From: Mycolicibacterium goodii
GTDB lineage: Bacteria > Actinomycetota > Actinomycetes > Mycobacteriales > Mycobacteriaceae
Reading direction: 5' to 3'
NCBI RefSeq assembly: GCF_022370755.2
Contig: NZ_CP092364.2
Span: 3,224,001 to 3,288,000 of the forward strand
DNA length: 64,000 nt
A model generated the notes under the pieces. The model saw only the letters and a program-made list of their open reading frames with translations, was not told where the DNA came from and searched no databases. Numbering within the stretch: the first letter of the stretch is position 1; every line of letters starts with the position of its first letter. Both the position numbers and the translations under genes were made by a program. Positions 29,453 through 46,779 of the stretch are shown one piece after another.

Positions 29453-29481
29453 GTGACATTTGTCAGATAATCTGTAAAGCT
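29453..29481 (+). promoter_or_regulatory. Shared promoter/operator motif, copy 1 (before DUF427 gene)
   Basis: GTGACA (29453-29458) and AAAGCT (29476-29481) are 17 bases apart and enclose TGACA-N14-TGTAA (29454-29477). This is the first of five copies. Here the start codon is 76 bases away and has its own Shine-Dalgarno, so only this copy gives a leadered message. Confidence 0.65.
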
Positions 29482-29556
29482 CCTACATGTGACTCGGCCA
29501 CCACCTCCCTTCGGCGTACGGCGTCGCGGTGTGATGACGAAAGTGAAGGTGGCGCA

Positions 29557-30264
29557 ATGAGTCTCGTCGCGGGCCACGGACCCCTGAGTGGCCGACCGGC
29601 TGGTTGGTTCACGCCACCGCTCGCAGGGCCCACCGTGTACGTCGAGCCCCACCCTCGACGCATCCAGGCATTCGTCGGCGGCATCGCGAAGATCGACACC
29701 GAACGTGCGCTGATGGTGCACCGCGCCGGGAGCCCGTTGAGCTACGCCTTCCCCGCCGAGGAGGTCGGCGATCTGCCTGCCCAGGATGTACCGGAGGCAC
29801 CCGGTTACGTCGCGGTGCCGTGGGACGCGGTCGACGTGTGGACGGAAGAGGGGCGCCGGCTGGTGCACTATCCGCCGAACCCGTATCACCGCATCGACTG
29901 CAGGCCCACCAAACGCAGGCTGCGGGTCACGGTCGGTGACATCGTGCTCGTCGACACCGACGACACGATCATCGTGTTCGAGACCGCCCTGGAACCTCGT
30001 CTCTACGTGAGCCCGGCGCTTGTCCGCACCGATCTGCTGCACCGCACGGACACGACCACCTACTGCAACTACAAAGGCGTCGCCACGTACTGGGCTGCCG
30101 TGGCCGGCGACACGGTGATCAGCGACGTGGCGTGGAGCTACCCGGACACCCCGCCCGAGGCCGAACCGCTACGGGGACATCTGAGCTTCGACGCGACACG
30201 CGTGCACGTGCTGGCCGAACTACCCGCATCAGGGAACGTCCCGGCCTGCGGCTGCACCATGTGA
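29557..30264 (+). CDS. DUF427 domain protein (two copies of the domain)
   Basis: A 235-residue protein with two DUF427 units, about residues 27-110 and 120-205. The second has the well-conserved TYCNYKGVATYW motif. The family is found next to many metabolic genes but has no assigned reaction. An AAGGTGG site precedes the ATG. The SRPBCC gene starts 20 bases after its stop, so they probably form an operon under motif copy 1. Confidence 0.85.
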   Translation: MSLVAGHGPLSGRPAGWFTPPLAGPTVYVEPHPRRIQAFVGGIAKIDTERALMVHRAGSPLSYAFPAEEVGDLPAQDVPEAPGYVAVPWDAVDVWTEEGRRLVHYPPNPYHRIDCRPTKRRLRVTVGDIVLVDTDDTIIVFETALEPRLYVSPALVRTDLLHRTDTTTYCNYKGVATYWAAVAGDTVISDVAWSYPDTPPEAEPLRGHLSFDATRVHVLAELPASGNVPACGCTM

Positions 30265-30284
30265 TCACCAGAAAGGCAACGCAA

Positions 30285-30758
30285 TTGGGCATCGTGACCA
30301 CCAGCTCGGAGACGGCGTTCACCCAATCCGCGGAAACTGTCTACGATTTCGTCACCGACCCGGCGAACTGGACCAAGACGTATCCGGGCAGCGCGCACAT
30401 CGAGGGTCTGCCGGACCGGCTGCCGTTACAGGTGGGCGACACCTGGAGCGAGACGGGCCCCGACGGCAGGCAGATCTACACTTGGCATCTCGCGATCGCG
30501 ATGCGTCCCCGGCTGTGGGTGTTCAACTCGGTCGGCCGCCTCGGTCACGATCGTGACGGCAACGGCGGTATGGACGGCCGGATCACCGTGCAGTACCAGT
30601 TCACCCGCCCCGGTCCGGACATCACGCTGTTCGGCCGGACCATGACCATCGAGGCCTACAAGGACTCGCCGTTGCCCGACGGGCTGTTCCGCATCGTCAA
30701 CCCGGCTCACATCGACTCCTACCACGCCGCGGTGGCGCGGGAACTGGCGAAAGTCTGA
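30285..30758 (+). CDS. SRPBCC (START/Bet v1-like) protein
   Basis: A 157-residue SRPBCC-type protein: the first strand ETAFTQSAETVYDFVTDPANWTK is diagnostic, followed by LQVGDTWSETG and later TVQYQFTRPGPDI. These helix-grip folds bind hydrophobic ligands or act as cyclases or hydrolases. The TTG at 30285 was chosen because GAAAGG lies just upstream and the N-terminus fits the family; a GTG nine bases later is possible. It is 20 bases downstream of DUF427. Confidence 0.75.
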   Translation: MGIVTTSSETAFTQSAETVYDFVTDPANWTKTYPGSAHIEGLPDRLPLQVGDTWSETGPDGRQIYTWHLAIAMRPRLWVFNSVGRLGHDRDGNGGMDGRITVQYQFTRPGPDITLFGRTMTIEAYKDSPLPDGLFRIVNPAHIDSYHAAVARELAKV

Positions 30759-30762
30759 AGCG

Positions 30763-31059
30763 TCAGAGCCGCTCGACTTCGACGAAGACGATCGTGTCGA
30801 CCGCCCCGCGGTTCTCGACGCGGTGTTCGACACCGGCGATCCTGGTGTAGCTCTCGCCGATGCGCAGTTCGGCGACGGTGTCGGTGCCGTCGGGTGCGAC
30901 GACGTGCATGGTGGCGTTGACCAGCGGCACGACGACATAGTCGTGCTCATGCCGGTGCATCGGGATGGCACCGCCGGGCTCGATGGTCCAGCGGGTGACG
31001 CGGAACCGTCCGTCGTCCTGCTGCAGTTCGCCGTGTGACCCTGTGTCCAGTTCGTCCAA
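30763..31059 (-). CDS. Small cupin-domain protein
   Basis: The 98-residue single cupin has the metal-binding motif 1 (GAIPMHRHEHDYVVVPL) and motif 2 (GVEHRVENRG). It is too small for more than one barrel. It converges on the SRPBCC gene with four bases between them. It could be a metal-dependent enzyme or a binding protein; substrate unknown. Confidence 0.8.
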   Translation of the reverse strand: MDELDTGSHGELQQDDGRFRVTRWTIEPGGAIPMHRHEHDYVVVPLVNATMHVVAPDGTDTVAELRIGESYTRIAGVEHRVENRGAVDTIVFVEVERL

Positions 31060-31293
31060 CGTCGCCTCCCGCGACTCGGGGCCCGCGAGGGCCGCGCCGC
31101 AGTGAGCCTAACGGCCGAACTCGGCCGAACAACAGATTTTCGAAGTCGCCGCAGAGCGCGGCGGCGAGCCCGAAGGTCCAGCGCAGGAACTCGCCGGACC
31201 CCGCGGACTTCCGCCAGATGTCCCCACCGCGGCTGGTCAGCATTGCCGCGTGTGGTCGGCCCGCGTGGGACCGAACCGGTCGGCGAACGCCCG

Positions 31294-32217
31294 TCAATGC
31301 AATGCGCGGCAAAGGGCCGCGCCCTGCAAGCTGAACAGTTCACGACTGACCTCCCACTCGGGCAACAGCGAGTCGAACCCGTGGCAGGTGCCTGCGAACA
31401 CATGCAGTTCGGTGGACACACCACCGTCGATCAGCCGACGTGCGTAGTCGAGCGCCTCATCCCGCAGCGGGTCCAGTTCGGAGCAGCTGATGAACGCCTC
31501 CGGCAGACCGATTGTTTCGGGGATACGCGCCGGGACGGCGGCATCCGGTGCCGCGCGTCCGCCCAGCCAGTGCCGCCACATGGCCTCGGTGGCCGGGCCG
31601 TCGAAGCCGGGGGTGTCGACGAATTCCCGCTTGGAACGCGTCGGGCGGTCGTCGAGCACGGGCTGGTGCAGGAGCTGGAACACGACCGGCGGCGCCGTCC
31701 CTGCCGCGGACCGCTGCGCCAACAACGCGGCCAACGCCCCGCCTGCGCTGCTGCCCGCGACGGCGATCCGATGGTGGTCCACGTCGAGTTCGTCGGCGTT
31801 GGCCGCCACCCAGCCCAGCACCATCGCGGCGTCATCCAGGGCTGCCGGGTACGGGTGTTCGGGGGCGAGCCGATAGTCCATCGCCACGACCGTGCACTGA
31901 CCCCGACGCGCCAGTTCCACGCATTGCAGCTGGTCCACGTCGAGGTTGCCCAGTACGAACGCGCCCGAATGGCAGTACACGACCGCCGGTGCCGGGGACG
32001 GGCCGCCGCGGTAGATGCGCACCGGTACGCTGCGCCGACCGAGCGCGGCCCGGCCGCCGGCAACGGCCACGCCGAACGTGTCGAGGGCCTGCGCCGATTC
32101 CCGGCGGCGCCGGTCGAGCGCAACCCGCATCCCACCGAGGGTTTCGGGTGACAGATCGGTGCGGGCGTCGGCGAACTCCCGCAGCGCGGGGTACAGCCGC
32201 TCGGTCCAGGCGGACAC
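31294..32217 (-). CDS. Alpha/beta-hydrolase esterase of the HSL/lipase family
   Basis: The 307-residue protein has the hormone-sensitive-lipase type oxyanion segment (YCHSGAFVLGN, a variant of HGGG), the nucleophile elbow GSSAGGALAA, and the acid/base end with His in AGTCHGFD. It is the last gene of the seven-gene operon and its GTG starts one base after the stop of the Baeyer-Villiger monooxygenase gene. In that setting it would hydrolyse the ester or lactone that the monooxygenase makes. Confidence 0.85.
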   Translation of the reverse strand: MSAWTERLYPALREFADARTDLSPETLGGMRVALDRRRRESAQALDTFGVAVAGGRAALGRRSVPVRIYRGGPSPAPAVVYCHSGAFVLGNLDVDQLQCVELARRGQCTVVAMDYRLAPEHPYPAALDDAAMVLGWVAANADELDVDHHRIAVAGSSAGGALAALLAQRSAAGTAPPVVFQLLHQPVLDDRPTRSKREFVDTPGFDGPATEAMWRHWLGGRAAPDAAVPARIPETIGLPEAFISCSELDPLRDEALDYARRLIDGGVSTELHVFAGTCHGFDSLLPEWEVSRELFSLQGAALCRALH

Positions 32218-32218: not shown

Positions 32219-33718
32219 TCAGCCGACCGTACGGTGTGCCGCCACCGAGGCCACCGGCGCGGGGCCGTCGGCCGGCGGGGTGAAGATGTAGTCCGCGGTG
32301 CGGAACCGGCGCGTCATCGCCCACAGCGTGCGGGCACTGCGCGGCCATTGCGTGACCACGCGTCCGTTGGGGGCACGGAAGTAGCTGCTGCACCGGGTCA
32401 GCCACACCGTGCCCCGCATCCAACGGTCGATGTCGGCGATGAACCGGGACATCACCTCGGGTTTCACCGCCACATAGGTCTTCTGCCTGCGCCGCAGGTG
32501 TTTCAGCGCGCGTACGACGTAGCGTGCCTGGGCCTCAAGGACGAAGATCACGCTGTTGGACCCGACATTGGTGTTCGGCCCGTAGAGCATGAAGAAGTTC
32601 GGGAAACCGGGCACTGTCATGCCGAGGTAGGCGTAGGCCCCGTCGCGCCACACCTCGCGCAGACGCAGGCCGCCCTCCCCTGTCACATCGATCTGTCCCA
32701 GGTAGTCGGCGGCGGCGTATCCGGTTGCGCAGGCGACGATGTCGACCTCGAGTTCACGGCCGTCCTCGGTGATCAGGGATCTCGACCGCAGCGCGCGTGC
32801 GGGACTCGACACCACCTCGACGTTCGGCCGAATGAGTGCCGGGATGAAATCGGAGGAGAACACAAGTCGCTTACATCCCAGCGGATGATCCGGGGTGAGC
32901 CGCTCGCGCAACCCGTCGTCGGTGACGGTGGCGTGCAGCATGTCGAGGGCGACGGCCTTGAACTCCTGCGTCTTGTCGCTGCCGTGTTCGATGACCGAGA
33001 TGTTCGATTCGCTGCGCAGCCACAAGCGGGTGCGGTAGATCTTCTTGGCCAGCGGCACGTGGGCGAAGATCCAGCGCTCGCGTGCGGTGTAGGAGCGGTC
33101 CGGTTTCGGCAGGATCCACGTGGGTGACCGCTGCACCGAGTACACCGTGTCCGCGACCTTCGCCAGTTGCGGGACCAGTTGCGCGGCCGTAGATCCCGTG
33201 CCGAGTACTGCGATCTTCCTGCCCGCCAGTGGGATCGAGTGATCCCAGCGGGACGTGTGCATCACGGTTCCGGTGAACGGTTCCTCCTCGACGAGGTCTG
33301 GCAGCAGCGGGCGGGTGAACAGCCCTACCGCCGACACCACGACGTCGAACCGGTATTGGTCGCCACCCGAGGTGGTCAGTACCCAGCCGTCGGTGTCCCA
33401 GCGCGCCGAGCACACCTCGGTGTTCAGCAACAGGTGCGGTTCGAGCCGGTGCCGCCGCGCACACCGTTCGAAGTACGCGAGGATTTCGGGTTGTTCGGAC
33501 CACAACCGTGTCCACTCGGCATTGAGGTCGAACGAGTAGGAGTACAGGTGCGACTTCACGTCGCACGCCAGGCCCGGGTAGGTGTTGATGCGCCATGTCC
33601 CGCCGACCCCGTCTTCGCGGTCGAAGATCGTGAAATCGCGAAACCCCGCCTTTTTCAGGAAGATTCCGAGGGCGAGGCCTCCCGGTCCGGCACCGATGAT
33701 CCCGACCGACATACTCAT
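32219..33718 (-). CDS. Flavin-dependent Baeyer-Villiger monooxygenase
   Basis: A 499-residue two-dinucleotide-binding-domain flavoprotein. It has an N-terminal FAD motif GAGPGG (9-14), the Baeyer-Villiger fingerprint FxGxxxHxxxW at 148-158 (FTGTVMHTSRW), followed by D159, and an NADPH-binding GTGSTA (173-178). The type I BVMO class inserts oxygen into a ketone to give an ester or lactone. The ATG at 33718 overlaps the SDR stop as ATGA and the downstream esterase follows by one base, which supports ketone to ester to acid processing in one operon. Confidence 0.92.
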   Translation of the reverse strand: MSMSVGIIGAGPGGLALGIFLKKAGFRDFTIFDREDGVGGTWRINTYPGLACDVKSHLYSYSFDLNAEWTRLWSEQPEILAYFERCARRHRLEPHLLLNTEVCSARWDTDGWVLTTSGGDQYRFDVVVSAVGLFTRPLLPDLVEEEPFTGTVMHTSRWDHSIPLAGRKIAVLGTGSTAAQLVPQLAKVADTVYSVQRSPTWILPKPDRSYTARERWIFAHVPLAKKIYRTRLWLRSESNISVIEHGSDKTQEFKAVALDMLHATVTDDGLRERLTPDHPLGCKRLVFSSDFIPALIRPNVEVVSSPARALRSRSLITEDGRELEVDIVACATGYAAADYLGQIDVTGEGGLRLREVWRDGAYAYLGMTVPGFPNFFMLYGPNTNVGSNSVIFVLEAQARYVVRALKHLRRRQKTYVAVKPEVMSRFIADIDRWMRGTVWLTRCSSYFRAPNGRVVTQWPRSARTLWAMTRRFRTADYIFTPPADGPAPVASVAAHRTVG

Positions 33719-34449
33719 CCGATCTGCAGGCATTGCCCGCCGTCGACGACGAGTTCGGATCCGGTGATGAACGACGCGCGCTCGGAGAGCAGGAATTCGA
33801 CGGCGTCGGCGATCTCGGTGGGCCTGCCGAGCCGCCCGGTGACGGCCCTGGCCGCGAGCCGTTCCTGCGTGGTCTCGTCGAGCATCGGGGTGGCGACGGG
33901 CCCGGGGAATACCGCGTTGACACGGATACCTTCGGGGGCCAACTCGGCCGCGGCGACCTGTGTGAGCCCGCGCAGCGCCCATTTCGACGAGCCGTAGGCG
34001 GCATGGTTCGGGAACGGGCGGATCGCGCCGGTGCTACAGGTGTTGACGATCGCCGCCCCCGCGGCGCGACGCAGACAAGGCAGTGCGGTGCGGATCCCGA
34101 GGAACGGGCCGAGGCAGTTCACCCGCCAACTGCCCTCGAAACCGTCCTGGGTCTCGTCGTCGAACGATGCACGGTGCAGTACACCGGCGTTGTTCACCAG
34201 GGCGCTCAGCGATCCGAACTGCTCCACCACGGTGTGCACGGCGCGCTGCCACTGCTCGGCCGAGGTCACGTCGAGCTCGAGCGCGATGACGGCATCGCCG
34301 TGATCGGCCGTCGACCGACGGAGGTCGCCGATCACCAGATCGGTTGCAGCGACCCGGAAACCGTCCGACACCAGCTTCGCCACGATCGCAGCGCCCTGGC
34401 CTCGTGCGGCACCGGTGACGAGTGCGACACGGTCGGTGGTCACTTTCAC
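33715..34449 (-). CDS. Short-chain dehydrogenase/reductase
   Basis: A 244-residue SDR: cofactor loop TGAARGQGAAI, NNAGVL, the catalytic Tyr/Lys in YGSSKWALRG and the C-terminal FITGSELVVDGG. The Asp after the second strand (ATDLV) suggests NAD preference. It is in the middle of the seven-gene operon between the aldolase and the BVMO and may oxidise a ring or side-chain hydroxyl to the ketone that the BVMO uses. Start is GTG; another GTG six bases downstream has a better spaced GGGAGA site. Confidence 0.87.
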   Translation of the reverse strand: MKVTTDRVALVTGAARGQGAAIVAKLVSDGFRVAATDLVIGDLRRSTADHGDAVIALELDVTSAEQWQRAVHTVVEQFGSLSALVNNAGVLHRASFDDETQDGFEGSWRVNCLGPFLGIRTALPCLRRAAGAAIVNTCSTGAIRPFPNHAAYGSSKWALRGLTQVAAAELAPEGIRVNAVFPGPVATPMLDETTQERLAARAVTGRLGRPTEIADAVEFLLSERASFITGSELVVDGGQCLQIG

Positions 34450-34457: not shown

Positions 34458-35240
34458 TCAGAGGTATCCCCTTTGCTCCGGACCGCCGGCGGCGCCGGTG
34501 GCCTCATCGAGGTGTTCGCGCGCGCCACGGCGCAGGGCCTGGGATTCGGAGGTCAGCGTGATCATCCGAAAACCCATGCCGGCCGCGGCCTTACCGCACT
34601 GTCCCGCTCCGGCGTGGATACCGCTGACCAGAGCGGCCTTGCGCGCCGCCTGCTGCACGGTCGCGAACGCCGCGCGGACCTCGGGATGCGTCCATGCGTC
34701 GGCGACCCGGTGACCCATCGAGATCGCCAGGTCCGCGGGTCCGACGTAGAGACCGGTCAGGTCGGGGACCGCGCAGATCTCCTCAACGGCCGCAACGCCT
34801 CTCGCGGTTTCGATCATGGCGAATACACTCGCGCGGTCCTGCAGCGCCACGGTGTCATGGCCGAGGTTCGCCCGCAGGGGGCCGAAGCTTCGCACACCCT
34901 CGGGGGCATAACGGGTGGCGGCCACCGCGGCCGCGGCCTGTTCGGGTGTCTCCACCATGGCGATGATCACCGCGTCGGCACCGGCGTCGAGGACTCGCCC
35001 GATGGGTGCGGCATCAGCAGTGGGAAGGCGCACCGCGGTCGCGACCGGCACGTGTTCGAGGCGACGCAGCAACAGGGCCACGTCGGCGTCGTCGAGATAA
35101 CCGTGTTGGACGTCGAACCCGACGTAGTGATAACCGGCGGCGGCAAATTCTTCCGGTGCCAGGATGGTCGGTCCGACAACCCAACCACCCCATATGGTCT
35201 CGTGGTGGGCCAGGGCATGGCGCAGTCGGCTCTCGGTCAT
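34458..35240 (-). CDS. HpcH/HpaI-type aldolase
   Basis: A 260-residue class II pyruvate aldolase of the HpaI family: GWVVGPTILAPEEFAAAG, the DVQHGYLDD segment, metal-binding Glu of AMIETARGVA and Asp of GLYVGPADLAISMG. The family cleaves 4-hydroxy-2-keto acids or similar to pyruvate and an aldehyde. Its start overlaps the alcohol dehydrogenase stop as ATGA and the SDR start is nine bases after its stop. It may give the final C-C cleavage of the pathway. Confidence 0.87.
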   Translation of the reverse strand: MTESRLRHALAHHETIWGGWVVGPTILAPEEFAAAGYHYVGFDVQHGYLDDADVALLLRRLEHVPVATAVRLPTADAAPIGRVLDAGADAVIIAMVETPEQAAAAVAATRYAPEGVRSFGPLRANLGHDTVALQDRASVFAMIETARGVAAVEEICAVPDLTGLYVGPADLAISMGHRVADAWTHPEVRAAFATVQQAARKAALVSGIHAGAGQCGKAAAGMGFRMITLTSESQALRRGAREHLDEATGAAGGPEQRGYL

Positions 35241-36205
35241 CGTGCCACTGCGATCTTGACCCGGTCCGGCACCGGGCGGCAGGCCAGTTCGAAGGCGGCC
35301 TGCGCGTCGTCGATGCCGAACGTGTGGGTGACGTAATTGTGCAGCAGTCCGGGGTGGTCGCGCGCGAACTCGTCCGCGCGGCGCAGGACCCGCTGCCGGT
35401 CCAGCGTCACACCGGATTTCAGCGTGAGGTTGTTGCGCAGCATGGTGCGCATGCTGATCGGATAGCTGTCGTCGTCGGGGACGCCGAAGTAGAAGACGGT
35501 GCCGCCGAACGCGGCCGCGGCCAGCCCGTGGTTGAGCGTGGCGACCTGGTGGCCGACGGCTTCGATCACGACGTCGGCGCGGTCGGCCGGATCGAGATAG
35601 GTGATCCAGCGGTCGCTCGTGGCGCGCACCGCGGCGTCGACGCCGAAACGCGAGGCGATCCCGGAGCGGTCGACGGGGTCGACACCGGTGATCCGCGCGG
35701 CGCCGAGAGCCTTTGCCACATAGGAGAACAACAGGCCGATCGAACCCTGTCCGATGATCGCGACATGGCGCCCGGCGAGGTCGGGCAACTGTTCGACGGC
35801 GTAGAGCACGCACGCCAGGGGTTGCAACGCTACGGCCAACCGGGGCGGTAGAGCCGGGTCGTAGGAGCTCAGACCGTTCCCGTCAGCGACGACCTGTTCC
35901 ATCAGACCGTCGAAGCCCGACGCCCAGCCCACCACGTGGTCCCCCACGCGGTGATCCGGATGGCTGCTCGCCAGGACCTCGCCGACGATCTCGTGGATCG
36001 GGAACCCTGGTATCCCGGCGGCGCACGGCCCGGTGTCCCCCGGCAACTTGCCCTGTGTGCCGCGGAATCCGGGAATGTCACTGCCGCAGATACCCGCGGC
36101 CGAGAAGCTCAGCAGCACCTGGCCGTCCGCCAGCGCATCCGGCGATGGTGGGGCGATGTCGGAGCGCTCGAAGGTGTACGGCGCGACGAGTCGGTAGGAC
36201 CACAC
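35237..36205 (-). CDS. Zinc-dependent MDR alcohol dehydrogenase
   Basis: The 322-residue medium-chain dehydrogenase has a catalytic zinc Cys (ICGSD), the conserved HE of FPIHEIVGEV and the NAD Rossmann motif HVAIIGQGSIGLLF. The four-Cys structural zinc loop of classical ADHs is not seen. The GTG at 36205 is one base after the P450 stop and preceded by GAGGTG. It probably oxidises the alcohol made by the P450 gene just upstream. Confidence 0.87.
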   Translation of the reverse strand: MWSYRLVAPYTFERSDIAPPSPDALADGQVLLSFSAAGICGSDIPGFRGTQGKLPGDTGPCAAGIPGFPIHEIVGEVLASSHPDHRVGDHVVGWASGFDGLMEQVVADGNGLSSYDPALPPRLAVALQPLACVLYAVEQLPDLAGRHVAIIGQGSIGLLFSYVAKALGAARITGVDPVDRSGIASRFGVDAAVRATSDRWITYLDPADRADVVIEAVGHQVATLNHGLAAAAFGGTVFYFGVPDDDSYPISMRTMLRNNLTLKSGVTLDRQRVLRRADEFARDHPGLLHNYVTHTFGIDDAQAAFELACRPVPDRVKIAVAR

Positions 36206-36206
36206 G

Positions 36207-37445
36207 TCACACCTCGACGGGCAGGTTGTTCCAGCCCCACTGGAAGCTCGACGGCGGTCGGTGGGCGGCATGTTCGTCGATCCGGTAGTCGCTCACGCGC
36301 TTGAGCCATTCGGTCACCATGATCGTGATCTCCAACCGGGCCAGGTGTACGCCGAGACAGAAGTGCTGCCCACGGCCGAACGCCAGCAACCGTTCGATAC
36401 GACGATCCCAGATGAACGACTCAGGGTCCGGGTATTCGCGTTCGTCACGGGCGGCCGACGCCAGGAGCGTGATGATGCGTTGCCCCGGCTGCAACGTGGT
36501 GCCGTGCAGCGTGAACGGTTTGCGTACCGTGCGCGCGAACCACTGTGCGGGCGCGCAGAACCGGATCATCTCCTCGCGCACGATCGGCACGTTGGCATCC
36601 AGATCGGCGCGCACGGTCGCGAGTTGCCCGGGATGTCTTCGGAGTTCCCACAGCCCGTGTGCCACGATCTTCGGCACGGTCTCGGTGCCGCCGATGAACA
36701 CGCCGAGCATCTGCGCAGCCGCTTCGGAGTCGCTGAAGGCAGACCCGTCGGGCAGTCGGTACCGCAGCAGGTTGTCGACGATCGGCAGTTCGTCGCCGTC
36801 GCCGGCGCGGCGACGGCGCACCACCGGGGTCAGGTACTCCAGGTAGCCCGGGCGCGCGTCGGCCACCTCGACGCCGCTGCCCGGTTGCGCGAGGCTGCCC
36901 GCGTTGACGGCGGCCAGCACATCGGCCGCGAGATCGACCGGCAGCCCGACCAGTTCGCACACCACCGCGGCCGCGACCATACCGCCGTAGTCCTGCGTGA
37001 GGTCGAAATGGCCGCGCGGCAGCAGTTCGTCGAGGCGCTCGTTGGCCAGCGTGCGGATGCGGTCGGCCAGTTTCGTCACCGAACGCGGCCGCAACGGCGG
37101 CGAGGTGCACCGACGCACGCTCTCGTAAACCGGGTTGTCGAAGTTCGCGTGGAACGGCATGGGATGCCACGGCGGGTCCGGCACGGCACCGTCGTTGCGC
37201 TGCGCCAGAACCGTTGCGGCGGGAAGGGTTCCCTCGGAGGCGACGAACGTCCCGTCGTTGACCTCGAGCACCCTCCAGATGTCGGAGAACCGCGACACGG
37301 CCCAGGTGTCCCACTTCTCGATGTGGTACACCGGATATCGGTCGCGCAGCACACGGTAGTACGGTGCCGGATCGGCCATCACGTCCGGGTCGAACGGATC
37401 GTACGAAAAGTTCCCCGTCACAGGCGGCCTCACCGACGCGGTCAT
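36207..37445 (-). CDS. Cytochrome P450 (1)
   Basis: A 412-residue class I-type bacterial P450. Visible are the I-helix GGTET (252-256, with Glu in place of the usual Asp), the K-helix EMIR (292-295) and the heme-binding FGRGQHFCLG with Cys363. Soluble, so it needs a ferredoxin and reductase from elsewhere; none is in the window. The ATG overlaps the upstream stop as ATGA. It is second in the seven-gene operon. Substrate class is open; mycobacterial P450s of this form act on terpenoid, steroid or fatty compounds. Confidence 0.93.
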   Translation of the reverse strand: MTASVRPPVTGNFSYDPFDPDVMADPAPYYRVLRDRYPVYHIEKWDTWAVSRFSDIWRVLEVNDGTFVASEGTLPAATVLAQRNDGAVPDPPWHPMPFHANFDNPVYESVRRCTSPPLRPRSVTKLADRIRTLANERLDELLPRGHFDLTQDYGGMVAAAVVCELVGLPVDLAADVLAAVNAGSLAQPGSGVEVADARPGYLEYLTPVVRRRRAGDGDELPIVDNLLRYRLPDGSAFSDSEAAAQMLGVFIGGTETVPKIVAHGLWELRRHPGQLATVRADLDANVPIVREEMIRFCAPAQWFARTVRKPFTLHGTTLQPGQRIITLLASAARDEREYPDPESFIWDRRIERLLAFGRGQHFCLGVHLARLEITIMVTEWLKRVSDYRIDEHAAHRPPSSFQWGWNNLPVEV

Positions 37446-38146: not shown

Positions 38147-38184
38147 CACGGCGCTCCGGCGGTTGACAGTGACACCTTGCGAGC

Positions 38185-38213
38185 GTGACACTTGGTGCGT
38201 GTTTTGTAAAGAT
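38185..38213 (+). promoter_or_regulatory. Shared promoter/operator motif, copy 2 (between operon and SMP-30 gene)
   Basis: GTGACA (38185-38190) and AAAGAT (38208-38213) are 17 bases apart around TGACA-N14-TGTAA (38186-38209). Eight bases follow before the GTG at 38222. A second GTGACAC occurs 16 bases upstream, making a direct repeat. The seven-gene operon starts on the other side, so a regulator bound here could control both directions. Confidence 0.7.
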
Positions 38214-39119: not shown

Positions 39120-39938
39120 ATGTCGGACTCCTACTACGAACTGCTCGATGCGTTCGATCCGCTCGGCGAGAAGTTCGCCGCCACCGACATGGTGCGCGGC
39201 ACGTGGTCGGCCGGCATCCAACATGCCGCGCCGGTGTCGGCACTGCTGGTCCGCGCCCTGGAGCGGTGTGAGCGGCGGGCCGACACCCGGCTGAGCCGCG
39301 CCGCGATCGACCTGATGGGCGGGGTGCCGTCCGAGGGCGGCCTGTGGGTGCGCGCCGAAATGCAGCGGCCCGGTAGGCAGATCGAACTCGTCGGCGCCGA
39401 GATGCTGGCCGCGGGCCCCGACGGCGCGCCGCGAACGGTCGCACGCGCGTCGGGTTGGCGCATGTCGACGCTCGACACGTCAGCACTGCAGTACACGGGC
39501 GAACCACCGCTGCCGCCGCTGGAGCAGGCCCACAGCCGCGACATGGCCAAGGACTGGGAGCCGAACTACGTGCACAGCCTCGACTGGCGCTGGCTCACGG
39601 TGCCGCAGGCCCCCGGGCGGGGAGAGTCGTGGCTCAAGCCCACGGTCGACCTCGTCAAGGGCGAGGTCATGACGCCGCTGCAGAGATTGTTCGCGGTCGC
39701 CGACGACGCCAATGGCATCGGCTCCAAGATCGACATCCGCACATGGACCTTTCTCAACACCGATCTCGTGGTCCATGTGCACCGGATCCCCGAGGGCGAG
39801 TGGATCGGGATCCGTGCCGACACCAACTACGGCCCAGACGGCGTCGGCACCACGGTCGGAACCCTGTTCGACGCGTCCGGTGCCGTCGGCGCGATCCAGC
39901 AGTCCGTGCTGGTGCGGCCCCGCCCGTCCCGTTCCTGA
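39120..39938 (+). CDS. Thioesterase-like (TesB-type double hotdog) protein
   Basis: A 272-residue protein with the acyl-CoA thioesterase-like layout: N-terminal GTWSAGIQHAAPVSALLVRALE helix, VRAEMQRPGRQIELVGAEML strand pair, and a second hotdog with DIRTWTFLNTDLVVHVHR and WIGIRADTNYG. TesB-like proteins of this type act on CoA thioesters or simply bind acyl groups. It follows the SMP-30 gene by 13 bases in the same operon. A 21-bp-arm palindrome ends the unit. Confidence 0.8.
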   Translation: MSDSYYELLDAFDPLGEKFAATDMVRGTWSAGIQHAAPVSALLVRALERCERRADTRLSRAAIDLMGGVPSEGGLWVRAEMQRPGRQIELVGAEMLAAGPDGAPRTVARASGWRMSTLDTSALQYTGEPPLPPLEQAHSRDMAKDWEPNYVHSLDWRWLTVPQAPGRGESWLKPTVDLVKGEVMTPLQRLFAVADDANGIGSKIDIRTWTFLNTDLVVHVHRIPEGEWIGIRADTNYGPDGVGTTVGTLFDASGAVGAIQQSVLVRPRPSRS

Positions 39939-40036: not shown

Positions 40037-41293
40037 CTACCGGATGTACGCCGGAACCCGTTTGATGCCGTGCACGAAGCTGCTGTACAGCAGTTCCGGC
40101 TCCCCGAACTCGACCGTCTTGAGTCGGGTCAGCAATTGGCGGAACAGGTTTCGCAACTCCGCCTTGGCCAGCTGGTTGCCGAGGCAGAAGTGCGGGCCCC
40201 CACCACCGAAGCCCAGGTGCGGGTTCGGCGAGCGGCTCAGGTCGAACCGATGCGGATCGGTGAACACCGTCTCGTCGCGATTCGCCGAACAGTAGAAGAG
40301 TCCGACCTTCTCCCCCGCCCTGACCGTCTGGCCCGCGACCTCGACATCCTCGGTGGCGAAGCGCGCAAACTGGATCACCGGGGTGGCCCAGCGCACGAAC
40401 TCCTCGACGGCCAGGCCGATGCGACCGTCGAAATCCTCGATGAGCCAATCGCGTTGGTCCGGGTTGGCGGCCAGCGCCATCATCGCGTGGGTGGTGGTCT
40501 GCTTGGTGGTGTCGTTGCCTGCGGATGCGAGCAGGATGAGGAACGCGCCGATCTCGTCGTCGGTCAACCGATGGCCGTCGACCTCGGCGTTGACGATGCT
40601 CGTCATCAGGTCGTCGCCCGGATTGGCGCGCCGGAACTTCGCCAGTTCCACACCGGTGTCGGAGATCAGCATGATCTCGTTGATCGTGGCCATGGCGCGT
40701 TCTTCGAGCGTCGCGTACTCGTCGTCGCTCATGCTGAAGAGCTTCTCGGCGGCCTTGGCCAGCGCAGGCTGATCAGCCTTGGGCACACCCAGCATGTCTG
40801 AGATCGTCCGCATCGGCAGCTGGGCCGAGCATGTCTCGACGAAGTCGACGTTGCCCGCACCGATCAGTTGGTCGACGATGTCGACGGCGTTGGCGTGAAT
40901 CTGCTCCTCGATGCGGCGCACATTGCGCGGCGTGAACGCCGAGCTGATCAACCGGCGGTACACCGTGTGCTCGGGCGGATCCATCATCAGGAAGAACGTC
41001 GCGAACTTCTGCACATCGGCGGGCATCGGATCCAGCGCGACGCCCTGCGCCGAGGTGAACAGCTCCGGATGCTGGCTGACGAATTGGATGTCGGCGCGGC
41101 GGGTCACCGCCCAGAAACCGGGCTCCTCGACGTCGAACAGCGACGACAGCGGCTGGTGCCAACTCAGGCCCTCTGCCGCCCGCAGTTGCGCGAACGTCTC
41201 ATCGCGCACACTGAACGGCTGACTCCAGAAATCGTGTGACGTGATGTCGAACGGGCTGTGTTCGCGTGCCTGCGCTGAGCTGGCGACTGTCAC
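40037..41293 (-). CDS. Cytochrome P450 (2), CYP124/125/142-like
   Basis: The 418-residue P450 has the I-helix AGNDT (258-262), the K-helix EFVR (298-301) and the heme loop FGGGGPHFCLG with Cys370. The heme loop and the HTVYRRLISSAFTPR segment are most like the mycobacterial CYP124/CYP142 group that hydroxylates methyl-branched or sterol side chains; exact family not assigned. It is divergent from the TetR gene across motif copy 3. Confidence 0.93.
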   Translation of the reverse strand: MTVASSAQAREHSPFDITSHDFWSQPFSVRDETFAQLRAAEGLSWHQPLSSLFDVEEPGFWAVTRRADIQFVSQHPELFTSAQGVALDPMPADVQKFATFFLMMDPPEHTVYRRLISSAFTPRNVRRIEEQIHANAVDIVDQLIGAGNVDFVETCSAQLPMRTISDMLGVPKADQPALAKAAEKLFSMSDDEYATLEERAMATINEIMLISDTGVELAKFRRANPGDDLMTSIVNAEVDGHRLTDDEIGAFLILLASAGNDTTKQTTTHAMMALAANPDQRDWLIEDFDGRIGLAVEEFVRWATPVIQFARFATEDVEVAGQTVRAGEKVGLFYCSANRDETVFTDPHRFDLSRSPNPHLGFGGGGPHFCLGNQLAKAELRNLFRQLLTRLKTVEFGEPELLYSSFVHGIKRVPAYIR

Positions 41294-41345: not shown

Positions 41346-41374
41346 GTGACACTTGCTCGATAGTTTGTAAAGCT
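41346..41374 (+). promoter_or_regulatory. Shared promoter/operator motif, copy 3 (P450-2 / TetR divergent)
   Basis: GTGACA (41346-41351) and AAAGCT (41369-41374) are 17 bases apart around TGACA-N14-TGTAA (41347-41370). Six bases follow before the ATG at 41381, the exact distance for a leaderless start. The first 9 and last 9 bases of the 26-bp block are identical to copy 2. Confidence 0.7.
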
Positions 41375-41380: not shown

Positions 41381-41959
41381 ATGACCGGAACCGACGCGGG
41401 GACCGACGCTGACAGCACCCGCGAGCGCATACTCGCCGCCACCGCGCAGGTTCTCGGCGACAACGGGATGACAAAACTGAGCCTGTCACGGGTCGCGTCG
41501 CAGGCCGGGGTGTCCCGCCCCACGTTGTATCGCTGGTTCTCGTCGAAACAGGATCTGCTCGACGCGTTCGTGGCGTGGGAGCGTGGCGCCTATGAGCAGG
41601 CCGTCGCGCAGGCCACCACCGCGCTGCCCGCGTCCGAGCGCCTCGACGCGGCACTGCGCGTCATCGCCGAGTACCAGCAGTCCTATCCGGGTCTGCGGAT
41701 GGTCGACATCGAACCCGAGCACGTCATCAGACGTCTCGCCCAGATCATGCCGCTGCTGCGTGAACGTCTCGAGCGCCTCACCACCGGTCCGGACAGCGAC
41801 GTGGCAGCGGCGACCGCGGTGCGCGTCGCGGTCTCGCACTACCTGGTACGCAGCGACGACGGCGACGACTTCTTGCCCCAGCTGTGGCATGCGGTCCGGG
41901 AGAGGCGGCGAGACCCCGATCGGAAGCCCGCGACACACGGCTACCCTGGGGAAGGGTGA
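41381..41959 (+). CDS. TetR-family regulator A of the catabolic cluster
   Basis: A 192-residue TetR protein. The helix-turn-helix is LSRVASQAGVSRPTLYRWF, followed by a ligand domain with YQQSYPGLRMVDIEPEHV and RVAVSHYLVRSDDGDDF. It is closely related to the TetR at 46173, including shared QAGVSRPTLYRWF and VRSDDGD blocks. It lies directly under motif copy 3 and its stop overlaps the start of the beta-glucosidase gene (GTGA). It is a good candidate to bind the shared motif. Confidence 0.9.
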   Translation: MTGTDAGTDADSTRERILAATAQVLGDNGMTKLSLSRVASQAGVSRPTLYRWFSSKQDLLDAFVAWERGAYEQAVAQATTALPASERLDAALRVIAEYQQSYPGLRMVDIEPEHVIRRLAQIMPLLRERLERLTTGPDSDVAAATAVRVAVSHYLVRSDDGDDFLPQLWHAVRERRRDPDRKPATHGYPGEG

Positions 41960-44211
41960 CCGACCCACTCGCGCAGATCTCCACCCTCACACTGATCCAG
42001 CAGGCCGCACTCGGCAGTGGCGCGAGCTTCTGGACCACCGAGGCCGTCGGGGACATCCCGTCGATCGTGCTCACCGACGGTCCGCACGGTGTCCGCAAGC
42101 AAAGCGGCGCATCGGACCATCTCGGCATCGGCAGCAGTGAACCCGCGACGTGTTTCCCTCCCGCGGCGGCGCTGAGCCAGACCTGGGATCCGGATCTGAT
42201 CGAGCGCGTCGGCGCGGCACTGGGCGCCGAGAGCCGCGCGTTGGGCGTCCACGTCCTGCTCGGCCCCGGCATCAACATCAAGCGGGATCCGCGTTGTGGC
42301 CGCAACTTCGAGTACTTCTCGGAGGATCCGCTGCTGTCGGGCGCGCTGGGCGCTGCCTGGGTGCGTGGGGTGCAGAGCCGCGGTGTCGGCGCATCGCTGA
42401 AACACTTCGCGGCCAACAACTCCGAGCACGACCGCATGCGCGCCAGTTCCGATGTCGACGACAGGACGCTGCGGGAGATCTATCTGCGGGCCTTCGAGCA
42501 CGTCGTGCGGGAGGCCGCACCGTGGACGGTGATGTGCTCGTACAACCGGATCAACGGGGTGTACGCCTCTGAGAACACCTGGTTGCTCACCGACGTGCTG
42601 CGCGGGGAGTGGGGGTTCGACGGCGTCGTCGTGAGCGACTGGGGAGCCGTACGAGACCGCGTGGCCGCTGTCGCGGCCGGTCTGGACCTGGAGATGCCCT
42701 CGTCGGGCGGCTTCGGCGACAGCGAGGTGGTTGCCGCGGTGACCACCGGTGCCCTCGACGCGGCGGCAGTGGCCACGGCCGCCGAACGGGTGGCGCGCCT
42801 GGCGCTGCGTGCGCACGGAAGCTCCTGGGCCGCAGAGACATTCGACATGGAGGATCTGATCGACGCCCATCATCGTCTGGCGCGGCAGGCCGCCGGCCTG
42901 GCCGTGGTGCTGCTGAAGAACGATCTGATCGACTCCGAGCCGATTCTGCCGCTCGCGCCGTCACGACTCGCGGTCATCGGGCCGTTCGCACAGGAACCCC
43001 GCTATCAGGGCGGCGGGAGTTCTCATGTCAACCCGACCCGTCTTGATGTCCCGCTGGACGAGATCCGGACATCCAACCTCGAGCATCCGGTGACCTACTT
43101 CCCCGGTCTGCCAGCGCATCCCGACGATGACGCCGAGCGACTGCGCGCGCACGCGGTGCGCGGCGCCGCCGAGGCCGACACCGCGGTGCTGTTCCTCGGC
43201 CTGCCCGCGGACGAGGACTCGGAGGGCTACGACCGTGAGCACATCGATCTGCCGCCCGAGCAGTTGGCGCTGCTGCGCGCGGTGGTCGAGGCGCAACCCC
43301 GCACGGTCGTCGTCCTGTCCCATGGCGGCGTCGTACGTCTGGATGCCGTTGCGGAACTGGCTCCGGCGATCCTCGACGGTGCGCTGCTGGGTCAGGCCGG
43401 CGGCGGCGCACTCGCCGATATCCTGTTCGGCGCCGTGAACCCGTCGGGGCGGCTCGCCGAGACCGTGCCCGCGCGCCTGCACGACACTCCGGCCTATCTG
43501 AACTTCCCGTCCGAGAACGGCCACACTGTCTACGGGGAACGCATTTTCGTGGGGTACCGCTGGTATGACGTCCGAGATCTGGAGGTCACGTTTCCGTTCG
43601 GGCACGGCCTGTCCTACACGGCGTTCGCATACTCCGACCTCGAGGTCGACGCCGGTCCCGACGGGTTGACGGTGCGCGTGGTGGTGGCGAACGTCGGTCC
43701 GCGTCCCGGCCGCGAGGTGGTGCAGGTGTACGCGTCCAAACCGGATTCCCGGATCAGCCGGGCGCCCCGCTGGCTGGCCGGGTTCGGCAGCCTGAGTTTG
43801 GACAGCGGTGAGCGGCGCGGTATCGAAATCCCAATCCGGCGTGCGGACCTCGCGTTCTGGGATGTCAGAAGTCGCCGGTGGTTGGTCGAATCCGGTGACC
43901 ACACGGCATCGGTGGGCGCATCCAGCCGGGACCTGAGACTGCATGCCACGGTGGCGGTCGACGGTGACGTTCCGAGGATCGTGTTCACCAGGGAGTCGAC
44001 GCTGGGCGAGATCCTCGCCGACCCGGCCGCCGCGCCATTGCTTTTCGAGACGCTCGGCACCGCGGCGGCGAGCACACCTGCGATGGGGACCGACCTGCTG
44101 CGGATGCTGGCGTCGGTGCCGATCGAGCGGATGGTCTCGCTTTCCGGCGGCCGGGTGACACCCGAACGGCTCGATGATCTGCTCGCGGCGCTCAACGCCG
44201 TGCGTCCTTGA
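41956..44211 (+). CDS. Glycoside hydrolase family 3 beta-glucosidase-like enzyme
   Basis: A 751-residue GH3 enzyme: N-terminal barrel with the KHFAANNSEHDR substrate-binding block (Lys149-His150) and the nucleophile Asp228 in VVVSDWGAV, an alpha/beta sandwich (about 300-520) and a fibronectin type III-like domain (about 570-640) ending the core. A C-terminal extension of about 100 residues follows. No signal peptide is seen, so it should act in the cytoplasm on an imported glycoside. The GTG start overlaps the TetR stop by 4 bases. It may free the aglycone that the P450/BVMO operon degrades. Confidence 0.9.
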   Translation: MTDPLAQISTLTLIQQAALGSGASFWTTEAVGDIPSIVLTDGPHGVRKQSGASDHLGIGSSEPATCFPPAAALSQTWDPDLIERVGAALGAESRALGVHVLLGPGINIKRDPRCGRNFEYFSEDPLLSGALGAAWVRGVQSRGVGASLKHFAANNSEHDRMRASSDVDDRTLREIYLRAFEHVVREAAPWTVMCSYNRINGVYASENTWLLTDVLRGEWGFDGVVVSDWGAVRDRVAAVAAGLDLEMPSSGGFGDSEVVAAVTTGALDAAAVATAAERVARLALRAHGSSWAAETFDMEDLIDAHHRLARQAAGLAVVLLKNDLIDSEPILPLAPSRLAVIGPFAQEPRYQGGGSSHVNPTRLDVPLDEIRTSNLEHPVTYFPGLPAHPDDDAERLRAHAVRGAAEADTAVLFLGLPADEDSEGYDREHIDLPPEQLALLRAVVEAQPRTVVVLSHGGVVRLDAVAELAPAILDGALLGQAGGGALADILFGAVNPSGRLAETVPARLHDTPAYLNFPSENGHTVYGERIFVGYRWYDVRDLEVTFPFGHGLSYTAFAYSDLEVDAGPDGLTVRVVVANVGPRPGREVVQVYASKPDSRISRAPRWLAGFGSLSLDSGERRGIEIPIRRADLAFWDVRSRRWLVESGDHTASVGASSRDLRLHATVAVDGDVPRIVFTRESTLGEILADPAAAPLLFETLGTAAASTPAMGTDLLRMLASVPIERMVSLSGGRVTPERLDDLLAALNAVRP

Positions 44212-44217
44212 ACCGCC

Positions 44218-44790: not shown

Positions 44791-44955
44791 CTCACCACGC
44801 GCCCACCGATGCGCTCCACGTCACTTCTCGGTGTCTCACCGACTCAGCCTCACGTCCTTCCGCGGCCACCTGGTGTCTATCCGCACCTCTCCAACCTCAA
44901 ACGCCCAGCACACCACGACCGCTTCGCGCCCACGCGTCACCAGTGCGCATTTGCA

Positions 44956-44984
44956 TTTACAAAATCGCAGCTCTTTGTAAACTT
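44956..44984 (+). promoter_or_regulatory. Shared promoter/operator motif, copy 4, best palindrome (TTTACAAA-N10-TTTGTAAA)
   Basis: TTTACAAA (44956-44963) and TTTGTAAA (44974-44981) form a perfect 8-bp-arm palindrome that contains TTACA-N14-TGTAA. Read as a promoter it is TTTACA-N17-AAACTT (-10 at 44979-44984), five bases before the ATG at 44990. This copy shows the symmetry that is partly hidden in the other four. Confidence 0.7.
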
Positions 44985-44989
44985 GGCTG

Positions 44990-46129
44990 ATGCTCTCGAC
45001 GGTCCGTCGCCTCCGACCAGCCCTCGGACTGGCCGCCCACATCGGCCACGGCGTGCAACGCGTTGCCACCGATGCCGCGCTAGGCAGGTTGCGGCGGTTC
45101 CCGCGTCGTATCTCCGAGCTCGACGCCGGTCACCTCAGCACCGTCATGGGACGGACGGTACGCACGCTATCAGTACTGGGCGGCGACGCCGGAACCTCGT
45201 CCCGGGCCCGGCTCTCGCTGACCGGCGACGGAGTTCCGGAAACGGTGTTCGTCAAGCTGCCCGCCGAGGCCGCCGCCACCCGGCTGATCGGAGAGCTCGG
45301 CAGGCTCGCCCACACGGAGGTGCGGTTCTATCAGCAGCTCGCCGAGGGCCTGCCCGGTGCCCCCCGGTCCCACGGCTCGGCGTTCGACGCGCCGACGGGA
45401 CGCTTCGTGCTCGTCCTGGAGGATCTGGCGGAGCAGCATTGTGAGTTCCCCGACACCCTGCACCCGCTCGACAAGGATCGCGCGGCGCTGACGGTCGAAC
45501 TGCTCGCCCGGGTGCACGCGTGCTTCTGGGGCCGCCTTCCCGCACGCAGCGGCCAGGGACCGCTGGGCTGGCTGTACTCGGCGTCCGGTGACGACACGTC
45601 GCTGCTGACCGGCTCGCTGCTGAAGATGTCGAGCCGACGACTGGCCGAGCGCACCGACATCCCGGTGCAGGACGGCCGGTTCGTCGACGAGAACTACCGG
45701 GCGGCCGCAGCGCTGCTCGATCGGCCACCCCACACCGTCATGCACGGCGACGCCCACCCGGGAAACCTGTTCTTCCGCAACGGCGAGGCGGGACTCTTGG
45801 ACTGGCAGGCGGTGCGCCGCGGGCACCCGGGGCGGGAACTCGCGTATACCCTGATCACCAGCATGACGACCACCGACCGACAAGCCGCGGAGCGCGACCT
45901 CCTCGAGGAGTATCGCCGCGCGCTGACCGCCGCCGGCGGCCCCACGCTGCATTCCGGCGAGTTGTGGGAGCGCTACCGCCTCGGCGCGGTGTACGCGTAC
46001 ACGGCGCCAGTGATCACCGCGGGCCTTGGCGGCATGCAGGACGACCGCATCGCGATGGAGGGCGCCCGGCGCGGCGTCGCGGCGCTGGCGGACCTGGAAA
46101 CCGTGGCTTTACTCAAGAAGCTGCTGTGA
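44990..46129 (+). CDS. APH-family phosphotransferase (aminoglycoside/choline kinase-like fold)
   Basis: The 379-residue protein has the APH-type kinase motifs: a Lys-bearing strand in TVFVKLP, the Brenner/catalytic motif HGDAHPGNLFF and the DFG-like LLDWQAVRRGHPGRELAY. Such proteins phosphorylate small molecules; in mycobacterial and pseudomonad catabolic clusters they sit next to acyl-CoA or P450 genes and may act on alcohol groups. No Shine-Dalgarno is visible before the ATG, in line with leaderless expression from motif copy 4. It precedes TetR B by 43 bases. Confidence 0.85.
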   Translation: MLSTVRRLRPALGLAAHIGHGVQRVATDAALGRLRRFPRRISELDAGHLSTVMGRTVRTLSVLGGDAGTSSRARLSLTGDGVPETVFVKLPAEAAATRLIGELGRLAHTEVRFYQQLAEGLPGAPRSHGSAFDAPTGRFVLVLEDLAEQHCEFPDTLHPLDKDRAALTVELLARVHACFWGRLPARSGQGPLGWLYSASGDDTSLLTGSLLKMSSRRLAERTDIPVQDGRFVDENYRAAAALLDRPPHTVMHGDAHPGNLFFRNGEAGLLDWQAVRRGHPGRELAYTLITSMTTTDRQAAERDLLEEYRRALTAAGGPTLHSGELWERYRLGAVYAYTAPVITAGLGGMQDDRIAMEGARRGVAALADLETVALLKKLL

Positions 46130-46172
46130 TGACCCTAGGATTTGGTAAACCACGACCAACCGAGGCTCGACT

Positions 46173-46721
46173 GTGAACGAAGCTCTGCCCGCAGGCCCGG
46201 GTGCGGACACCTCGACCCGCCACCGGATCCTGGTGGCCACGGCCGAGGTACTCGCACGCAGTGGCCAGACCAAGCTGAGCCTGTCGGAGGTGGCACTGCA
46301 GGCCGGGGTCTCGCGGCCCACGCTGTACCGGTGGTTCGCCGACAAGCAGGAGCTCCTCGACGCGTTCGGCAACTACGAGCGTGAGATGTTCGACCACGGG
46401 ATCGGCCGCGCCACCGCGGGCCTTCGCGGCAACGAAAAGCTCGACGCGGCTTTGCGGTTCATCGTGCAGTACCAACAGTCGTATTCCGGGGTGCGACTGG
46501 TGGACATCGAACCCGAGGTGGTCATCGCCCAGCTGTCCCACGTCATCCCGATCATGCGGGCCCGCCTGCTCAAGTTGCTCTCGGGCCCCAATGCGGCGGT
46601 CAAGGCCGCGACGGCGATCCGCGTGGCCGTCTCGCACTACATCGTGCGCAGCGACGACGGTGACCAGTTCCTCGCCCAGCTTCGCCACGCGGTCGGCATC
46701 AGGCAGACCGAGCCGAACTGA
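46173..46721 (+). CDS. TetR-family regulator B of the catabolic cluster
   Basis: A 182-residue TetR protein, a paralogue of the regulator at 41381: helix-turn-helix LSEVALQAGVSRPTLYRWF, then YQQSYSGVRLVDIEPEVV and RVAVSHYIVRSDDGDQF. The GTG at 46173 starts at the family's usual position. It is between the phosphotransferase and the aldehyde dehydrogenase gene, each under its own motif copy. Near-identical recognition helices suggest that both TetR proteins read the same site. Confidence 0.9.
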   Translation: MNEALPAGPGADTSTRHRILVATAEVLARSGQTKLSLSEVALQAGVSRPTLYRWFADKQELLDAFGNYEREMFDHGIGRATAGLRGNEKLDAALRFIVQYQQSYSGVRLVDIEPEVVIAQLSHVIPIMRARLLKLLSGPNAAVKAATAIRVAVSHYIVRSDDGDQFLAQLRHAVGIRQTEPN

Positions 46722-46750
46722 TCGATCGCCCAAGAATTTGTACCAAGCTC

Positions 46751-46779
46751 CTGACACTAAGACGCATTTTTGTAAAGCT
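46751..46779 (+). promoter_or_regulatory. Shared promoter/operator motif, copy 5 (before aldehyde dehydrogenase)
   Basis: CTGACA (46751-46756) and AAAGCT (46774-46779) are 17 bases apart around TGACA-N14-TGTAA (46752-46775). Seven bases follow before the ATG at 46787, so the start is leaderless-like. Confidence 0.7.

Follow-up and report, generated by a model that had tools for sequence, protein, structure and literature searches.

An inverted repeat recurring in a Mycolicibacterium goodii gene cluster as a likely TetR-family operator combined with a promoter

The gene cluster and its five sites

The window analyzed here is a 64,000-nucleotide stretch of Mycolicibacterium goodii DNA (contig NZ_CP092364.2, positions 3,224,001 to 3,288,000), and it carries a cluster of putative catabolic genes in which the motif T(G/T)ACA-N14-TGTAA recurs five times (Table 1). 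A previous sequence-only reading of the window had described these copies, and its account of them was accurate: all five lie on the plus strand at the places given, with exactly 14 bases between the arms; the flank bases of sites 2 and 3 are identical (18/18); and site 4, at 44956-44981, is a perfect palindrome, TTTACAAA-N10-TTTGTAAA. Its statement that the copies lie upstream of plus-strand genes is correct but tells half of the matter, as sites 1, 2, and 3 are flanked by divergent genes. Taken in full, the element is a 30-base-pair (bp) inverted repeat, AGCKTKACA...TGTMAMGCT. A promoter block GTGACA-N17-AAAGCT had also been fitted to the copies; the match is exact at sites 1 and 3 only, while site 2 ends in AAAGAT, site 5 begins with CTGACA, and site 4 offers TTTACA with AAACTT, or with TAAACT one base earlier.

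Table 1. Sites, regulators, predicted mini-open reading frames (mini-ORFs), and genes in the window
Feature	Coordinates	Strand	Remarks
Site 1, core TGACA-N14-TGTAA	29454..29477	+	Between divergent genes; other-species profile E 2.6e-4
Site 2, core	38186..38209	+	Between SMP30 (+) and NIPSNAP-headed operon (-); profile E 0.002
Site 3, core	41347..41370	+	Between TetR A (+) and CYP268-like P450 (-); profile E 8.1e-5
Site 4, symmetric core	44957..44980	+	Upstream of APH/EcKL-type kinase; E 1.75 genome-wide, 0.016 in window
Site 5, core	46752..46775	+	Upstream of aldehyde dehydrogenase, other side without gene start; profile E 0.003
TetR A, 192 amino acids (aa)	41381..41959	+	ATG at predicted +1 of site 3; TetR_N 56.1 bits (cut-off 24); likely repressor, autoregulated
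TetR B, 182 aa	46173..46721	+	Paralogue of TetR A; TetR_N 44.6 bits (cut-off 24); probably in kinase operon
Predicted leaderless mini-ORF, 23 codons	29489..29560	+	One base after predicted +1 of site 1; TGA overlaps DUF427 ATG
Predicted leaderless mini-ORF, 10 codons	29412..29444	-	Other side of site 1; TGA overlaps ATG of the 28759-29415 gene
Predicted leaderless mini-ORF, 9 codons (VSLSTAGAP)	38146..38175	-	Minus side of site 2; TGA overlaps NIPSNAP GTG
218-aa protein	28759..29415	-	No Pfam match
DUF427 (NTP_transf_9) protein	29557..30264	+	Not itself leaderless; 23-codon mini-ORF runs into its start
Alpha/beta hydrolase	31294..32217	-	Nearest NCBIfam model hormone-sensitive lipase, below cut-off
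Baeyer-Villiger-type flavin monooxygenase	32219..33982	-	
Short-chain dehydrogenase (SDR)	33715..34449	-	
HpcH/HpaI aldolase	34458..35813	-	Domain in second half; true start probably downstream of the ORF start given
Zinc-type alcohol dehydrogenase (ADH)	35237..36271	-	
Cytochrome P450	36207..37556	-	Start codon uncertain
NIPSNAP-like protein	37442..38149	-	Pfam on 37442-38146; first main gene of likely minus-strand operon
SMP-30/gluconolactonase-like protein (SMP30)	38222..39106	+	GTG at offset 12 after site 2
4HBT_3 acyl-CoA thioesterase	39120..39938	+	
Cytochrome P450, leadered	40037..41293	-	Closest solved structure CYP268A2 (a name that cited references give for M. marinum)
GH3 glycosidase	41884..44211	+	Nearest NCBIfam model exo-alpha-(1->6)-L-arabinopyranosidase, below cut-off; start uncertain, the ORF overlapping TetR A
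190-aa protein	44218-44790	-	No Pfam or NCBIfam match; occupies the side that holds a CoA-transferase at 48 related kinase sites
APH / ecdysteroid-kinase-like (EcKL) phosphotransferase	44990..46129	+	
Aldehyde dehydrogenase (AldDH)	46787..48271	+	

The genes present are suggestive of hydroxylation, oxidation to a ketone, Baeyer-Villiger insertion, opening of an ester or lactone, and coenzyme A (CoA)-linked breakdown of a lipid, terpenoid, or steroid-like compound. Comparisons of the two P450s, the monooxygenase, the kinase, and a CoA-transferase with structures in the Protein Data Bank (PDB) left the pathway unsettled, the kinase having no match in them. Members of the GH3 cluster were found in 17 of the compared loci, the window included; the presence of the glycosidase hints that the substrate may arrive as a glycoside.

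The genome scan that the sequence-only reading had proposed confirmed how narrowly the motif is confined. The exact pattern TKACA-N14-TGTAA occurs at six places in the 6.74-Mb genome, five of which are the window sites within a 17-kb stretch; the same pattern read backward, as a control, occurs once on the forward strand and not at all on the reverse. Allowing up to three mismatches over 18 motif positions, a genome scan returned sites 1, 2, 3, and 5 only, and the control returned none. An independent profile, built without the window sites and trained on 50 sites of other mycobacterial species (taken in order from the top of a 90-site list drawn from 113 randomly chosen, diversity-filtered sites), gave the same four sites as its only genome matches at E<0.01 (E 8e-5 to 0.003), followed by C1:1090045 (E 0.23), C1:741805 (E 1.28), and then site 4 (E 1.75). 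The weak copy at C1:1090045 (locus L129 of genome G000) lies near the start of a 147-aa gene and is probably due to chance. Chance occurrence of the motif itself was ruled out by the genome counts and the reversed-pattern controls. A search of the window against Rfam found no family at threshold.

Conservation of the motif and its likely regulators

The two TetR genes among the sites had been called paralogues, and their products are indeed 61% identical and have a common recognition segment, QAGVSRPTLYRWF; with that segment identical, either or both proteins may bind. TetR B begins 43 bases after the kinase. AlphaFold gave a model of TetR A with moderate confidence (mean pLDDT, the predicted local distance difference test score, 67), and the named homologues, among the best 120 of 2775 proteins, are called only "TetR or AcrR family regulator."

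We examined 77 mycobacterial loci picked for a relative of TetR A. The pattern T[GT]ACA-N14-TGT[AC]A was present in 77/77 of them, at 290 sites in total, and the reversed pattern was found 0 times in the 1.42 Mb of the same loci. The loci represent the best 80 of 325 TetR relatives, several come from sister strains, and all derive from records named Mycobacterium, Mycolicibacterium, or Mycobacteriaceae. As they were chosen by TetR and include close strains, a survey of 61 genomes provides the better test. A TetR A relative at E<=1.6e-56 was present in 29 of the 61 genomes, the best match in the other 32 having an E of 1e-11 or worse, and motif matches (profile, E<=0.1) were found in an identical set of 29 genomes; neither was found in eight genomes of the same genus and in all 24 of other genera. 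Presence and absence thus agree in 61/61 genomes, an agreement that is not a count of events since the species are related and the counts are not independent. The number of copies per motif-bearing genome ranged from 1 to 7 by the profile, and G026, among these 29, carries only one match, at E 0.019. The palindrome stands just before a TetR gene at 56+16 sites. The co-occurrence fits the proposed TetR-type operator, and the motif is likely the operator of a mycobacterial TetR family that includes TetR A and TetR B.

The site types of the window recur before the same genes in other species. Classes were tabulated from 294 of 295 sites, one lying too near a locus end, and those with fewer than five sites (18/294 rows) were left out. 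With the window's own sites included, we found 36 SMP30/NIPSNAP sites (and 29 partly assigned), 56 TetR A/P450 sites, and 54 AldDH sites, and among the related loci a further 48 kinase/CoA-transferase sites. The kinase site of the window has no CoA-transferase opposite, the 190-aa gene and the GH3 gene lying on that side. Sites at DUF427 are less common. Five members make up the DUF427 cluster, and L107 is the only locus apart from the window with a site listed directly before the gene.

The motif was taken to mark a local regulon, which is true of M. goodii with its five of six exact matches; in relatives, by the same sequence comparisons, parts of the regulon lie elsewhere in the genome. The genome survey gave 126 matches, 96 of them no more than 25 kb from a TetR relative and the other 30 farther away or on another contig, the TetR positions being 41 listed matches down to E 3.4e-38. 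We examined 10 of the 30 distal matches, in eight regions. In G004, distal sites stand before or between SMP30-thioesterase and ADH-SDR-monooxygenase-esterase genes with the TetR gene 4.5 Mb away in contig coordinates (~1.4 Mb if circular), and in G018 the same targets are preceded by sites with TetR on another contig. A site also directly precedes the start of a cluster 32 relative in G034 and of a kinase relative in G006. At L190 (position 4687) and L191 (position 4513), in two genomes, a motif copy is followed by nearly the same flank, cgcttgcggccg, ahead of genes not clearly related to the cluster, possibly a further member of the regulon.

KstR and KstR2 of mycobacteria are TetR repressors of multigene lipid and steroid catabolic clusters, and the KstR operators are shorter palindromes. 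The regulon proposed here would resemble theirs in being a TetR-repressed multigene catabolic cluster, but the KstR model (NCBIfam NF033703) gave 31.9 and 23.5 bits, far below its cut-off of 280, and the earlier failure to match the sites to KstR is upheld. Among the NCBIfam models listed for the cluster proteins, none was named for KstR2. Mce3R has tandem TetR domains in one chain. It is the closest solved TetR to TetR A by sequence (9b7y, E 2.7e-9), the similarity covering the helix-turn-helix region only; the match lies in the second half of a 406-aa chain, unlike TetR A and TetR B with their 192 and 182 aa and one TetR_N domain each. The remaining candidate is Rv0767c. Motif X is attributed to the Rv0767c orthologue, a different TetR (PMC6593523, PMC4482099), and has been reported before phytosterol-induced P450 and dehydrogenase genes (PMC6593523). 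In the reported binding regions of Rv0767c, GAC and GTC are enriched, TAA and TTA scarce (PMC10312376). The likeness to the present case extends to a mycobacterial TetR, palindromes before P450, alcohol dehydrogenase, and aldehyde dehydrogenase genes, a site at the regulator's own gene, and the comparative mode of inference (PMC6593523, PMC4482099).

Orthology of TetR A or TetR B to Rv0767c nevertheless failed on sequence, position, and motif. The M. goodii genome has an Rv0768-type aldehyde dehydrogenase above cut-off at C1:90898 (953.7 bits vs. 775), and the TetR beside it, the Rv0767c relative by position, shares 32% identity with TetR A over 50 aa and 23% with TetR B. The region of the Rv0768-type gene and its TetR contains GGACA-N2-TGTCC in 20/24 loci and the present motif in 0/24 (L118, L166-L188, L128). 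That GGACA-N2-TGTCC is probably the published motif X, which we set apart from the present motif by comparing these regions. Although the P450 and Baeyer-Villiger content, the Mce3R similarity, and the genes preceded by motif X would all suit a described regulon, be it KstR, KstR2, Mce3R, or Rv0767c/motif X, the model score, the weak Rv0767c similarity, and the differing motif and base composition make it very improbable that the sites belong to one, and we conclude from the comparisons that the regulon is neither that of KstR nor that of the Rv0767c regulator. We found no paper describing the motif or its regulator, judged by title or the start of the abstract, with most subscription papers outside the search. 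The conserved regulon appears real, with a likely repressor, and is apparently undescribed; for a genus of medical and industrial weight, it yields a putative repressor together with an operator matrix and a list of targets.

Promoter geometry and the proposed mechanism

We measured positions as offsets, in bases after TGTAA; the 17-bp spacer from the -35 region puts the predicted +1 at offset 10. At the TetR A-type sites, an ATG or GTG stands at offset 10 in 54/56 cases, and at the further TetR sites in 16/16. The AldDH sites have a start codon at offset 10 (30 sites) or 11 (24 sites), 54/54 altogether, and provide a natural control, since a gene starts on only one of their sides: T at -7 (offset 3) is found in 51/54 on the gene side and in 3/54 on the gene-less side. 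As this -10 T follows the gene side, we assign the outer flanks to the promoter, and the arms to promoter and operator alike, and the contrast between the sides offers a way of separating the bases read by the repressor from those read by the polymerase. At the TetR A/P450 sites, the -10 T is present on both sides (55/56 and 56/56). An ATG or GTG stands at offset 10 on the P450 side in 29/56, and the window P450, on the minus side of site 3, is leadered, with GGGAGGG, a Shine-Dalgarno-like sequence, before the GTG at 41293. On the NIPSNAP side, ATG or GTG is at offset 10 in 36/36 fully assigned sites and in 61/65 with the partly assigned ones included.

Kinase genes start at offset 9 in 29/48 sites, and 28 of those 29 have a T at offset 2, against 3/19 of the others, so the start and the -10 T tend to shift together. 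The -10 T moving as a whole was rejected as too strong a description, T being equally common at offsets 2 and 3 over all kinase sites (65% each). The leaderless messages foreseen by the sequence-only reading are thus supported by geometry across species, as predictions, with the exception of site 1, where DUF427 is not itself leaderless and a mini-ORF precedes it.

The fixed spacing, the near-fixed distance to the start codon, and the flank bases tracking the gene side would all be expected if the motif were a promoter only, the -35 and -10 of a particular, perhaps alternative, sigma factor with the TetR genes as mere neighbors. A promoter alone, however, would not explain the agreement with the TetR gene over the surveyed genomes, and it needs no mirroring of the arms, which mirror each other in 4/5 bases and in 5/5 at the 48 kinase/CoA-transferase sites. 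One to seven copies per genome are few for a general promoter class, and no sigma factor was present among the cluster genes scanned. We regard the promoter-only explanation as unlikely.

We put the probability at roughly 0.75 that the one repeated 30-bp element is a TetR-family operator fused to a vegetative-type promoter with start codons at or next to +1. The motif, its conservation, its co-occurrence with TetR, the geometry, and the overlaps are direct results of computation; from them we infer TetR binding and repression, use of sigma-A, a ligand, and translation of the mini-ORFs, as follows. The 30-bp inverted repeat would be bound by a TetR family, seen here only in mycobacteria and represented in the window by the two copies A and B. 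The TGACA arm would serve as the -35 region ([G/T]TGACA), and the TGTAA arm with its AGCT flank as an extended -10 (TGT-AAAGCT), sigma-A-like with its 17-bp spacer. When bound, the repressor would hide the core promoter in its entirety and switch it off, until released by a ligand, most likely a pathway intermediate. The symmetry of the arms would make the reverse complement a promoter too, so that one site could serve divergent genes. With the start codon at or next to +1, the mRNA would be leaderless; alternatively, a leaderless mini-ORF at +1 would hand its ribosomes to the next gene through a four-base overlap of stop and start. The regulon would control the P450, alcohol dehydrogenase, Baeyer-Villiger monooxygenase, esterase, SMP30, thioesterase, kinase, and aldehyde dehydrogenase genes, and both TetR genes. 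The case illustrates how one and the same element could be both palindromic operator and two-way promoter, its symmetry also fixing the leaderless starts.

TetR could also act as an activator, or the two paralogues could read the unlike arms (TGACA, TTACA) as a heterodimer. The conservation of two paralogues with an identical recognition segment and the asymmetry of 232/295 sites are in keeping with such roles. Yet a protein sitting on the -35 to -10 stretch would block the polymerase; G004 and G018 show one close TetR each among the listed matches, yet have asymmetric sites; and a -35 (TTGACA) paired with a -10 would itself call for such asymmetry. We find both variants quite unlikely.

Several observations weigh against an operator fused to a promoter, beyond the relatedness of the species. 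Besides the 30 matches distal to TetR, a cluster 24 relative at L193 (G020) ends, rather than starts, at the site; the match lies inside a called ORF in L191 and L194 (G016 and G029); and the match at L190 (G022) precedes an SDR that is weakly related to that of the cluster (31% identity). The geometry is loose in places. The kinase start at offset 9 is found in little more than half of its sites, and a second in-frame ATG or GTG at offset 4 in 32/56 TetR A-type sites means that the start codon is not unique there, although these earlier codons would fall outside the message. On the CoA-transferase side, T is at offset 3 in 5/48 and the leader is Shine-Dalgarno-like; on the cyclase side, the start codon is at offset 3 and T is there in 0/9; and the SMP30 side has the T in 23/36, with ATG or GTG at offset 12 in 12/36 and at offset 2 in 19/36. 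In G004 and G018, a 12-codon mini-ORF on the ADH side has no overlap with the next gene, its stop in G004 being four bases before the called ADH start. A generic Escherichia coli-type (sigma-70) promoter scan of 29300-46900 was at chance, with one match, at site 4 only, against 1.3 expected, and the promoter reading therefore rests on comparison between species and not on a consensus match. Finally, a shuffle test of dyad symmetry was uninformative for the arms, whose columns are fixed by the search pattern, and inside the arms the symmetry was at most slightly above that of the shuffles.

Predicted mini-ORFs between the element and the genes

Mycobacterial leaderless transcripts with an RTG at +1 and small ORFs coupled through RTGA, the TGA lying within the RTG of the next gene, are known (PMC4633059). 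The same TGA/RTG overlap as in those coupled small ORFs is found at three places in the window, as predicted from the sequence. There, site 1 on both sides and site 2 on its minus side would drive leaderless mini-ORFs and not leaderless main genes.

Across species, the pattern can be followed on the NIPSNAP side, where 5/65 rows of NIPSNAP/SMP30 class (L093, L113 twice, L115 twice) were left out of the counts that follow. In 47/60 sites, the frame beginning at offset 10 (V-x-L-S-T...) closes with an NTGA that overlaps an ORF of at least 200 codons, compared with 6/60 and 2/60 in the other frames; the first base is A or G in 45/60, and counting T gives the 47. A separate frame count of these mini-ORFs gave 47/56 assignable. 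The coupled mini-ORFs are 9, 10, 11, 12, 15, 19, 20, or 24 codons long, 40/47 of them having 9 to 12. The remaining 13 frames end in TAG (6) or TAA (2), overlap without such a downstream ORF (4), or form an in-frame fusion (1). Without the filter on the downstream ORF, one other frame ends in NTGA in 35/59.

Relative to the coupled small ORFs of PMC4633059, the difference here is that a single palindromic operator/promoter, present in repeated copies, has both leaderless starts and coupled mini-ORFs tied to it, and that this is conserved between species. Each of the three kinds, TetR regulons, leaderless mRNAs, and RTGA-coupled mini-ORFs, is known; as far as sequence comparison can tell, what is new is their fusion in one symmetric repeated element, and the cluster provides a conserved case of predicted leaderless mini-ORFs coupled to catabolic genes.

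The NIPSNAP-side mini-ORF contains one further conserved feature. Among 55 distinct sequences, from the window (38146-38175, minus strand) and 60 related sites, six of the seven bases of CTGTCAA at offset 16-22 are conserved at 98% or above, and the heptamer repeats the TGTCA arm 22 bp further on. As CTGTCAA is kept while the surrounding codons vary, a role at the nucleotide level is suggested, possibly as a third half-site or as a translation-sensing or translation-level element. We tentatively consider a wider reading, somewhat less probable than not, in which one symmetric 30-bp element would be by design a TetR operator, a two-way promoter, and a ruler setting the starts on both strands at +1, with coupled mini-ORFs, CTGTCAA being the third half-site or translation-sensing element.

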